Below the pieces are notes generated by a model. That model made no database searches. It was not told the DNA's origin and saw only the letters and a list, made by a program, of their open reading frames with translations. From Reichenbachiella sp. (lineage in GTDB: Bacteria; Bacteroidota; Bacteroidia; Cytophagales; Cyclobacteriaceae), in assembly GCF_033344935.1 (NCBI RefSeq), contig NZ_JAWPMM010000001.1, positions 186,001 through 250,000 of the forward strand: a stretch of 64,000 bases of DNA, read 5' to 3'. A program made the position numbers and the translations under genes. This document shows positions 18,151 through 20,989 of the stretch, piece after piece; the first letter of the stretch is position 1, and each line of letters starts with the position of its first letter.

Positions 18151-18783
18151 TTACTCTACTGACTTAGAGAGTCTATACAATTTGATCACCGGATCAAAGG
18201 TGTCGAACTCTTCAATTTGCACACTTTGTAACTCCAACAATACACCTTGCATATATCCATGGGTCTGATAGGCTTTGAAGTTGGCGTAGTGTCCCGAAAA
18301 GCGCTGATCCATCCAGAGTAGGAGCCGTTGCCAACGATTGGTAGGAGCACAAAATCCGCAGATAATCATTTGATCTGCAATGCCTATAAGTTTATGAACT
18401 AATAACTTAGCCTCTTCAGGTTTTATAACATGCAAGACCAAACTAACAATGGCATAATCATAAGTGCTTTGACCTAAATCTTCTTGAACTGCGTCTGCGA
18501 CTTGAAAGTCGAGATTCTCACTTCCTTCCAAATCCTTTCGCTCATTGGCATAATCTATCAATGACTCATCTATATCCATACCCAACGCATATTTGATTTT
18601 GGGAGATAATCGGAATAGCAAGTCTCCATTGCCACAGCCGATTTCAAGTACTTCGGACTCGGGAGCTACCAAATCACAGATTTGTTCCCGTATCGGGCTA
18701 AGATACTTGTCTACTGTTGTGGCTTTAATTTTTGCTTTCAAATGAATGTGAACGAAGTATAGAACCAAATTATCGAAAACCAT
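18151..18783 (-). CDS. Class I SAM-dependent methyltransferase
   Basis: A protein of 210 residues with the SAM-binding glycine-rich motif VLEIGCGNGD near residue 41 and the acidic motif II in GMDIDES. The motif IV region YAIVSLVLHVI also fits. The acceptor is unknown. It is the first gene of the minus-strand operon and starts 32 bases from a set of three palindromes shared with the divergent BlaI gene. BlaI control of this operon is therefore possible. Confidence 0.83.
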   Translation of the reverse strand: MVFDNLVLYFVHIHLKAKIKATTVDKYLSPIREQICDLVAPESEVLEIGCGNGDLLFRLSPKIKYALGMDIDESLIDYANERKDLEGSENLDFQVADAVQEDLGQSTYDYAIVSLVLHVIKPEEAKLLVHKLIGIADQMIICGFCAPTNRWQRLLLWMDQRFSGHYANFKAYQTHGYMQGVLLELQSVQIEEFDTFDPVIKLYRLSKSVE

Positions 18784-18815
18784 TTAAATGATCAAAACAA
18801 GAAAAACAGGCTTTA

Positions 18816-18871
18816 AACTTAATTTTAAGTTAAATAACTTATCAATAAGTTTGTAAACTTAAAATTAAGTT
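18816..18871. promoter_or_regulatory. Three tandem 16-bp palindromes, candidate BlaI operators
   Basis: AACTTAATTTTAAGTT (18816-18831), AACTTATCAATAAGTT (18836-18851) and AACTTAAAATTAAGTT (18856-18871) are three palindromes with starts exactly 20 bases apart. The shared form is AACTTAW-NN-WTAAGTT. Twenty bases is about two helical turns, so dimers would bind on one face. The array fills the gap between the methyltransferase and BlaI genes. Confidence 0.8.
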
Positions 18872-18880
18872 GTACTATTG
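18850..18880 (+). promoter_or_regulatory. Promoter of the BlaI/M56 operon
   Basis: TTTG at 18850-18853 and TACTATTG at 18873-18880 are separated by exactly 19 bases, matching the Bacteroidota consensus TTTG-N19-TANNTTTG except for one base. The third palindrome lies entirely within the spacer and the second overlaps the -33 box. A repressor bound there would block RNA polymerase. The expected start of transcription is near 18887. Confidence 0.7.
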
Positions 18881-18909
18881 TCTAGCTGATTAAAATTAAA
18901 CTCAATAGT

Positions 18910-19284
18910 ATGGTCACTTTAACTAAGGCAGAGGAGAAGATTATGAAGATTCTCTGGGGTATCGAAAAAGGTTTTATCAAGGATATCATCGATCAATACC
19001 CCGACCCTAAACCTCCCTACAATTCGGTCTCTACGATTGTGCGGGTGTTGGTACAAAAAGAGATCGTGGGCTATACCGCTTACGGCAAATCTCACCAATA
19101 TCACCCCATGATTAGCAAGGACGAATATAGTGAAGGGCAAATGTCGCGACTTGTGAAGGACTATTACAGCAACTCACTAGCCAAAGTGGTCAACTTCTTT
19201 TCTGAAAGTAAAGAGCTCGACGAAAAGGAATTAGACGAGGCCATGAAAATGCTTGAAGCACTTAAATCGCAGAAAAATGGATAA
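18910..19284 (+). CDS. BlaI/MecI/CopY family transcriptional repressor
   Basis: A protein of 124 residues with the family's winged helix at residues 1-75 (VTLTKAEEKIMKILW, then PPYNSVSTIVRVLVQKEIVGY) and a C-terminal dimerisation helix region. Family members repress until cleaved by, or released through, an M56 metalloprotease partner. The next gene encodes such a protease and overlaps this one by 8 bases. The promoter carries three palindromes that are very probably its operators, so it should repress itself. Confidence 0.93.
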   Translation: MVTLTKAEEKIMKILWGIEKGFIKDIIDQYPDPKPPYNSVSTIVRVLVQKEIVGYTAYGKSHQYHPMISKDEYSEGQMSRLVKDYYSNSLAKVVNFFSESKELDEKELDEAMKMLEALKSQKNG

Positions 19285-20989
19285 GTTCATTTGGTATTTG
19301 ATGGAGTCCAGCGTACTGCTGGCCTGCCTCTACGCACTATATGTATTGATTTTGAGAAAGGAAACTTTCTTTTCTCTCAATCGCTTCTATTTGATTGCCA
19401 TTGTGCTTTTTAGCTTGGCCATTCCACTTTTGAGTTTTGATTTTAACCCGGCTCCAGCGGCTCAGCTACCTATACGGCAATTAAGCGAGGTGCGTACAAC
19501 CTATTACGACGCATTCGCAGATTGGACGTACGCGTATCAGCATACAACTACCTCCACTACCGCCAACCAGTCCAGTTGGTTTAGTGAATTAAACTGGACG
19601 CAATTAGCCCTTTGGGCTATGGTCGGTGTGTACCTGATAGGTGTGATCGTTTGTTTGTCACGTACCGTATGGACGGTACAATGGATCTACGGATTGATCC
19701 GTAAGCAAGGCTGGGAATCGTGGGACTACCTCAGGATTGTGAAAGTGAAAAACCCTATGGCTCCCTTTTCATTTTTGAATTATGTCTTTGTACATGAAGA
19801 AATGATAGGTACTGCGGAGTTTGATCACATCCTGGCACATGAGCGTACGCATGTACAGCAGCGACATTCTTTAGACTTAATATTTGTTCAACTTTTGGCG
19901 GCCTTCTTCTGGTTCAATCCAGTGATCTGGCAGCTGATTAAATCCCTGAAAACAACACATGAATATATAGCAGACAACAAAATTTTAAATGAGGGTTATT
20001 CCTTAGTTGAGTATCAGACCTTGCTTTTGAGACAATTGATCAGCAACAACTCTTACGGGTTGGTACACAATTTCAATTTATCATTTATAAAAAAGCGAAT
20101 AACCATGATGACAAATAAAAAATCAGGTGCAATGGGCAAAGTGAAAGTAGCCCTGGCCTTAATATTTACAGCAGGATTTAGCATGGCCATGATACAATGC
20201 AACTCGGCTGCTGAAGAAAGTACAACTATTACTTCTGAAAAATCAACTATTAATAATTTCTCAGACGGAGTAAAATTACCAGTAATCATAGGTCGTGAAG
20301 GTGCCTATTATGCAACAGAATCTGATCTTTTAAATTTCACTGTCATGAATGATCGTCTGACCATAGATGGAGTCGAACACGAAGTAGATGAAATAGCAGA
20401 AGTGATAGCAGCCTCTGGCTTGACAACCAACGGTATCATCGCATTAAGAGTAGATCAAGATCAAAAAATGAAAATGATCCGAGCGATCCAAACGGAGTTG
20501 AGGAAAGCAAACAGGCGAAAAGTACTGCAATTGGGTCAGTCTTCATTGGGGCAAACTGTGGAGTCGCCGATGCTTTTACCTCCTATGAAGGGAGCCAATC
20601 TACCCGGTGTTCCCGAAATGCCTCATATAGATGATGCCTATGCCAAGGAGCATGACATAGATATTTTAAAAATCTTTTTAGGAAAACATGCCGATATGAA
20701 TTATCAGAAATTGACCTATGATTTTGTAATAGATCAAATGGAGAAGGGAAAGTCTAATTATGTAGTTAGTACTAAGTTTAGTGATGCAGATTCTTATGGT
20801 ACTTACCTTCAGAATTGGGTTTATATACAGGAAGGTTTTAATCAAATCTATCAGGAAAGAAGTCAGTCTATGTATGGTAAAAACTATCTGGAACTGAATA
20901 AAGAAATTCCTGAAGAGAAAGCGCAATACGACGCGATTAGAAAAGGAATCCCAAGGGCGATATCTTTAGCCGAGCCTGATGACTGTTAA
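19277..20989 (+). CDS. M56 (BlaR1-type) membrane metalloprotease with non-PBP C-terminal domain
   Basis: A protein of 570 residues from ATG 19277, overlapping the BlaI stop by 8 bases. Membrane helices are near residues 5-26, 36-54 and 108-128, and a fourth follows residue 285. The gluzincin motif HERTH is at 188-192 in the cytosolic loop. Family members cleave or trigger cleavage of the partner repressor. After the last helix about 270 residues face the periplasm, but they lack the SxxK/SxN/KTG motifs of the BlaR1 beta-lactam sensor. Part of that region (about 345-430) has an ExbD/TolR-like pattern, which is only a resemblance. The inducing signal is therefore probably not a beta-lactam. Confidence 0.87.
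   Translation: MDKFIWYLMESSVLLACLYALYVLILRKETFFSLNRFYLIAIVLFSLAIPLLSFDFNPAPAAQLPIRQLSEVRTTYYDAFADWTYAYQHTTTSTTANQSSWFSELNWTQLALWAMVGVYLIGVIVCLSRTVWTVQWIYGLIRKQGWESWDYLRIVKVKNPMAPFSFLNYVFVHEEMIGTAEFDHILAHERTHVQQRHSLDLIFVQLLAAFFWFNPVIWQLIKSLKTTHEYIADNKILNEGYSLVEYQTLLLRQLISNNSYGLVHNFNLSFIKKRITMMTNKKSGAMGKVKVALALIFTAGFSMAMIQCNSAAEESTTITSEKSTINNFSDGVKLPVIIGREGAYYATESDLLNFTVMNDRLTIDGVEHEVDEIAEVIAASGLTTNGIIALRVDQDQKMKMIRAIQTELRKANRRKVLQLGQSSLGQTVESPMLLPPMKGANLPGVPEMPHIDDAYAKEHDIDILKIFLGKHADMNYQKLTYDFVIDQMEKGKSNYVVSTKFSDADSYGTYLQNWVYIQEGFNQIYQERSQSMYGKNYLELNKEIPEEKAQYDAIRKGIPRAISLAEPDDC

Follow-up and report, generated by a model that had tools for sequence, protein, structure and literature searches.

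A phased array of three palindromes over the blaI promoter of Reichenbachiella sp. is a predicted autoregulatory operator of the blaI-m56 operon

An array of three 16-bp palindromes in front of a blaI-type gene of the marine bacterium Reichenbachiella sp. is very likely the operator by which the blaI-m56 operon next to it is autoregulated. This assignment builds on the sites themselves, their spacing, their conservation together with a clade of BlaI proteins, their overlap with the blaI promoter and the presence of an M56 partner gene. The recognition address of this operator is very probably distinct, judging from the sequences compared, both from that given in textbooks and from the addresses used by sister repressors of the phylum. 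The window, i.e. the whole stretch of DNA that was analysed, comprises 64,000 nucleotides, and the features of the locus are as follows.

18816..18831, no strand, distal operator palindrome AACTTAATTTTAAGTT
18836..18851, no strand, middle operator palindrome AACTTATCAATAAGTT, overlapping the -33-like TTTG
18856..18871, no strand, proximal operator palindrome AACTTAAAATTAAGTT, filling the promoter spacer
18850..18853, plus strand, TTTG, -33-like element of the blaI promoter
18873..18880, plus strand, TACTATTG, -7-like element
18885..18890, plus strand, GCTGAT, conserved element just past the -7 box, in the region of the presumed start site or leader
18910..19284, plus strand, BlaI/MecI-family repressor, 124 aa
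19277..20989, plus strand, M56 membrane peptidase, presumed antirepressor, with the HERTH zinc motif at 19838-19852
20321..20539, plus strand, predicted ExbD-like periplasmic domain of the M56 protein (residues about 349-421)
20762..20977, plus strand, second M56 region, similar to the C-terminal part of ExbD from Bacteroidales exbD-blaI-m56 operons

A preliminary description of this DNA had reported three 16-bp palindromes with an exact 20-base period, and exact matches at all three positions bear this out. The 56-bp array (18816-18871) is made up of three palindromes that match AACTTANNNNTAAGTT perfectly, with start-to-start distances of 20 and 20. The span originally given, 18816-18880, includes the -7 box up to its last base, but the array proper ends at 18871. 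No exact AACTTANNNNTAAGTT match occurred in 100 dinucleotide shuffles of the window, and the three-site pattern with up to three mismatches was matched once in the window and never in the shuffles. A genome search, which the preliminary description had called for, returned the three sites of the array as the sole exact matches in the whole genome (one contig, 4,878,078 bases). When one mismatch was allowed, 17 places were found in all compared to 56 for a reversed-pattern control, indicating that the motif is not enriched elsewhere in the genome.

The primary-sigma promoters of Bacteroidota follow the consensus TTTG/TAnnTTTG, with -33 and -7 boxes separated by a spacer of about 19 nt. The promoter-like pair TTTG-N19-TACTATTG fits this pattern with one mismatch in the -7 box. 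As had been described, the third palindrome lies inside the 19-base spacer and the second, which extends to 18851, covers the first two bases of TTTG. In 45 of 48 orthologous arrays (see below), TAnnnTTG starts 1 nt beyond the proximal site, and the downstream element reads GCTGAT in 41 and GCT[GA]AT in 45 of the 48 orthologous upstream regions. At one locus (L274), the distance from array, promoter and GCTGAT leader to the downstream blaI exceeds that in the other orthologs by about 100 bp.

The gene neighbourhood given in the preliminary description agrees with the Pfam assignments: Penicillinase_R for BlaI (PF03965, E 2.9e-26; 92.5 bits, above the curated cut-off of 22.6), Peptidase_M56 for its neighbour (PF05569, E 1.6e-11) and, on the minus strand, a divergent set of genes for a methyltransferase, an alpha/beta hydrolase (S33-like), an arginase-family protein and an MFS protein. 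The AlphaFold model of BlaI (mean pLDDT 80, with lower confidence in the C-terminal half) has the winged-helix and dimerisation domains of MecI/BlaI, the recognition helix comprising residues 37-49. It matched 14 PDB chains at E<=0.001, all of them MecI, BlaI, Rv1846c or CopR; these include MecI 1okr and the DNA complexes 1sax, 2d45 (MecI) and 1xsd (BlaI). An M56 gene lies beside blaI in the window, and an M56 match was detected downstream of blaI in 22 of the 23 orthologous loci with larger flanks, the exception being L090.

In a family-wide search of 245 genomes, the orthogroup comprised 24 matches with 72-100% identity in 21 genomes, while BlaI proteins outside it reached at most 53% among the matches listed. 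Likewise, apart from the window's own protein, none of the matches listed for a 395-genome sample of the phylum exceeded 53% identity. Further relatives were found in records titled Kordia and Fulvivirga and, at 61-70% identity, in Bacteroidales such as Labilibacter, Plebeiobacterium and Carboxylicivirga. We defined the group as the loci with the helix P[PL]YN[ST][VI]ST[IM]VRVL, which gave 69 loci, or 54 once identical upstream regions had been removed. A lack of the palindromes upstream of orthologous blaI-m56 pairs had been named in advance as evidence against a BlaI-type operator overlaying the blaI promoter. The motif was present at 54 of 54 distinct loci (titles: Reichenbachiella, Fulvivirga, Kordia, Labilibacter, Carboxylicivirga and others), which supports such an operator.

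At 48 of these 54 loci, a proximal site with 11 or 12 matching bases is located within 260 bp of blaI, and 41 of the 48 match at all 12 bases. Relative to this site, further sites (at least 10 of 12 bases) occur at exactly -20 in 46, at -40 in 43 and at -60 in 3 of the 48 arrays; at any other offset, at least 9 of 12 bases were matched in at most 2 arrays. At the distal, weaker site, 12/12 bases match in 17 arrays. The arms are kept and the centres vary, with 11, 18 and 27 different centres at the proximal, middle and distal site, respectively, and the flank upstream of the array appears unrelated from genome to genome. The two arrays that lack a -20 site are L297, which has one site, and L275. 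Two sites each were counted at L082, L100 and L277 under the same 10-of-12 rule, and L090 has three sites with one mismatch in each. Side observations concern the period and number of sites: L275 carries three sites at a 21-bp period, the sole such array among the 48, and four-site arrays, again with a 20-bp period, occur at L262 and L271 (Fulvivirga titles) and L270 (Kordia title).

At the other six loci, the array is found 666-815 bp upstream of blaI, ahead of an exbD gene (tblastn, 6/6; PF02472 in the three tested). In these Bacteroidales-type records (L276, L279, L280, L284, L287 and L289), exbD precedes blaI-m56, an M56 gene again adjoins blaI in 6/6, and the AACTTA array stands before exbD. 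The array thus stays at the head of the operon, as expected for an operator of the blaI operon.

Conservation of a site beside a regulator gene argues strongly, though indirectly, for binding by that regulator; a different regulator could in principle bind the palindromes, e.g. an unlinked repressor targeting the operon. We regard this as very improbable: the motif accompanies this BlaI clade through different families and orders, and its sister clades bear sister motifs of the same 16-bp architecture ahead of their own blaI genes, with a nearly empty mirrored-sequence control. Even less credible is the idea that no protein binds the repeats and that they work through nucleic-acid structure, as hairpins, a terminator or leader RNA for the divergent operon. 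Every site is indeed a palindrome and the entire 56 bp is quasi-palindromic, but the array lies upstream of the blaI -7 box and therefore outside the blaI transcript, its spacing is nearly fixed at 20 bp, whereas a hairpin needs no such spacing, and the array persists at loci that lack the divergent operon.

The preliminary description had also proposed that the array jointly controls the divergent operon, a claim that gained no comparative support. Among 23 orthologous loci, tblastn (E<=1e-5; 7-kb upstream flanks, shorter at four) located the MFS gene at one and the genes for methyltransferase, hydrolase and agmatinase at none. The minus strand of 18741-18912 gave no TAnnTTTG. As the array is kept where the divergent genes are missing, it belongs to blaI-m56. 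An effect on the divergent operon of this genome is still conceivable, because the methyltransferase start codon is only 32 bp from the array end and a minus-strand promoter could hardly avoid the array; furthermore, a related MFS gene lies in divergent orientation at the corresponding position in L079. Such a shared operator, which would be compatible with autoregulation, seems to us rather unlikely.

For autoregulation of blaI-m56, the following mechanism can be envisaged. BlaI dimers would bind up to three 16-bp palindromes 20 bp apart, i.e. about two turns, on the same face of the helix, and the near-invariant spacing is compatible with cooperative binding. The proximal dimer would occupy the spacer between the -33 and -7 boxes and the middle dimer would cover the -33 box, so that RNA polymerase could not gain access. 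Following the BlaR1/MecR1 precedent, a signal at the periplasmic ExbD-like part of M56 may activate the zinc protease, which would then remove BlaI and turn the operon on.

The M56 protein carries the HExxH signature of zinc proteases (HERTH), and H188, E189 and H192 are invariant in six aligned sequences. Its C-terminus is weakly ExbD-like by sequence: Pfam ExbD matched 3 of 6 C-termini (3/5 orthologs) at E 0.017-0.031, the best scoring 15.6 bits and thus below the cut-off of 25.4, and gave no match in the window's own protein. The region 20762-20977 aligns with Bacteroidales ExbD (tblastn 29%, E 1.3e-4; hhalign 67 columns, E 1.5e-5, probability 79%). In the predicted model, the C-terminal part adopts an ExbD/TolR fold, and residues about 349-421 resemble the periplasmic domain of ExbD (8p9r, 8vgc); unlike in ExbD itself, this domain is fused behind a metalloprotease. 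Searched for a penicillin-binding sensor domain, the protein gave only Peptidase_M56 in Pfam at E<=0.001, and its C-terminal 253 aa gave no transpeptidase at E<=10. ExbD/TonB-type machinery is a proposed source of the signal for this M56 protease, which lacks a penicillin sensor.

BlaI and MecI of staphylococci act at palindromic operators over their own promoters, and the array described here is arranged in the same way. Like BlaR1-BlaI and MecR1-MecI (1xsd, 2d45), the locus pairs a BlaI-fold repressor with an adjoining M56 membrane protease, and the outer half-site bases fit. The differences are the inner half-site (TTA compared to TACA), Val46 in place of BlaI Arg51, the usual presence of three sites in 20-bp phase, and an M56 C-terminus that is ExbD-like by predicted fold and in which Pfam reports no penicillin-binding domain.

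The preliminary description had set the motif apart from the classical BlaI/MecI/CopY core TACANNTGTA. This holds for the inner bases, as the sites read AACTTANNNNTAAGTT, but not for the outer ones: according to the available text of PMC7253601, the 16-base CopY operator follows the consensus RNYKACANNTGTMRNY, and AACT/AGTT fits its outer RNYK/MRNY. The two 21-base cop repeats of S. pneumoniae given in the same text recall the spaced array. Unlike in CopY operators as presented there, the ACA core is replaced; moreover, the BlaI described here has no cysteine in its 124 aa and hence no CXC copper motif, and it has an M56 partner, of which the available text of PMC7253601 makes no mention for CopY. 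In Clostridium thermocellum, BlaI_0696 and BlaI_1845 recognise the half-sites GTCTAT and GACTAT and are autoregulated through several dyads, with sites ordered for four protomers, a very small regulon and BlaR1 in the operon (PMC8457756, as far as the available text goes). These non-TACA half-sites are near the WACTAT class described below, although they differ from AACTTA, come as two dyads compared to three to four here, and belong to a different phylum. BlaI autoregulation through several dyads and the 16-base CopY operator are thus already known from the accessible parts of these two papers; new relative to the literature searched are the AACTTA specificity, the phased array of three to four sites, the phylum-wide half-site classes and the connection between M56 and ExbD.

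To describe operator classes, we compared 322 distinct BlaI loci of many clades, a sample drawn through similarity searches that is not a census. By a criterion blind to the protein, a general dyad CTxx...xxAG was found within 300 bp upstream at 209 loci compared to 11 of the 322 mirrored sequences. Dyad pairs 20 bp apart occurred at 58 loci and in none of the mirrored sequences, and 20 was the commonest spacing of adjacent dyads (67 cases), followed by 40 (14 cases). A half-site class could be assigned from the last 220 bp at 205 loci (93 AA, 47 TA, 36 AC, 23 AT, 5 GA and 1 TT), distributed over the recognition helices as follows.

Group helix: 46 TA, 8 unlabelled (six exbD-first loci; L090 and L292 with imperfect sites)
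Arg46 helix: 35 AC (TTCTACANNTGTAGAA type, classical core), 4 unlabelled
Helix PAYNT[VI]STI[VI]RIL: 60 AA, 2 AT, 1 TA, 49 unlabelled
Val43+Val46 helix: 11 AT, 1 unlabelled
Ser42 helix: 5 GA, 8 unlabelled
Other helices: 33 AA, 10 AT, 1 AC, 1 TT, 47 unlabelled

Some of the odd labels are artefacts of the rule: unrelated dyads gave rise to TA at L130, which has AACTAATGTTTTAGTT at its promoter, and to AC at L211. Among the unlabelled loci, L379 and L380 (Arg46) carry TTCTATATTTGTAGAA, five Ser42 loci (L107, L118, L149, L183 and L185) have imperfect AACTGA-type sites, and no AACTGA-type site was seen at the remaining three (L075, L127 and L188). BlaI-family operators are usually described as TACANNTGTA, from which most of the classed Bacteroidota loci sampled differ; as just 35 of 205 are of the classical-core type, a search for TACANNTGTA would miss most of them. 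At loci of Arg46-type homologs (L321-L338, L348, L349, L357-L361 and others), we also noted TTCTACANNTGTAGAA-type sites, which are often followed by a second, weaker dyad at a distance of exactly 20 bp.

When mutual information with operator class was calculated for columns 3-117 over 204 loci, position 46 ranked first with 1.37 of 1.93 bits. In phmmer alignments, query residue n (from 37 on) corresponds to BlaI n+5, which places Val46 at BlaI Arg51; the same alignments have Arg at this position in MecI, BlaI, CopR and Rv1846c. In the available text of PMC3506622, Arg51 of a conserved PadR motif is stated to be identical to the sequence-specific DNA-binding residue of RTP or BlaI. Arg46 is present in 35 of 36 TACA-class loci and in 0 of 169 other labelled loci, and the exception, L211, owes its label to a dyad that is peculiar to it and differs from TTCTACA. 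It seems reasonable to infer that loss of Arg46/51 goes along with loss of the C:G pair of TACA. The covariation of helix and operator is real as a description, and the named residues may be its cause. The link could also reflect shared ancestry only, with no specificity code in these residues. A tree built without the helix columns has 15 class changes in all, and the TA and AC classes, almost single clades, need only 2 changes each (the starred branches force only 1); independent pairs are too scarce to tell the two readings apart. In addition, the non-helix columns 93, 77 and 23 come next after 46 in mutual information, L392 (P36, T42) has AACTAA, and L270, L286 and L297 keep AACTTA despite Leu36. 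Against this stand the top rank of the very column aligned with BlaI Arg51 and the near-exclusive distribution of Arg46, so that ancestry alone appears unlikely, albeit a serious contender. From the comparison, operators can be predicted for five clades and a few helix positions singled out, so that the evolution of repressor specificity and the insulation of paralogs become directly testable.

Co-resident blaI promoters were compared in 21 genomes (retrieved genes only). At least one further blaI of another class was present in 12 of 18 genomes with a TA-type blaI. The congener G006 has four blaI genes of the TA, AA, GA and AT classes, each motif before its own gene, and G035 has TA, AA, GA and AC at its blaI genes. 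We tentatively suggest that Bacteroidota cells harbour several insulated BlaI-M56 relays, with operator dialects (AACTTA, AACTAA, AACTGA, WACTAT and TTCTACA) set by a few recognition-helix residues. The AACTTA relay might serve as an envelope sensor, its M56 protease reading the ExbD/TonB machinery via the built-in ExbD-like domain (in Bacteroidales, a co-transcribed exbD) and freeing the 20-bp-phased multi-dimer operator. Counter-cases are the paralog L029 of the window genome, whose imperfect site scores equally for AA and AT, and G088, which has two TA-type genes that possibly share one operator; no recognisable site was found upstream of the AYNT-type paralogs L109, L151, L166 and L172.

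The upstream regions of a BlaI subgroup with the helix end ...RILERKG (L038, L040, L043, L049, L110, L125 and L139) are without a palindrome. What they share is an off-centre element resembling AACTAA-N5-ATAAGTT and, between it and the start codon, a TTTAAACTTAAAC-like stretch.
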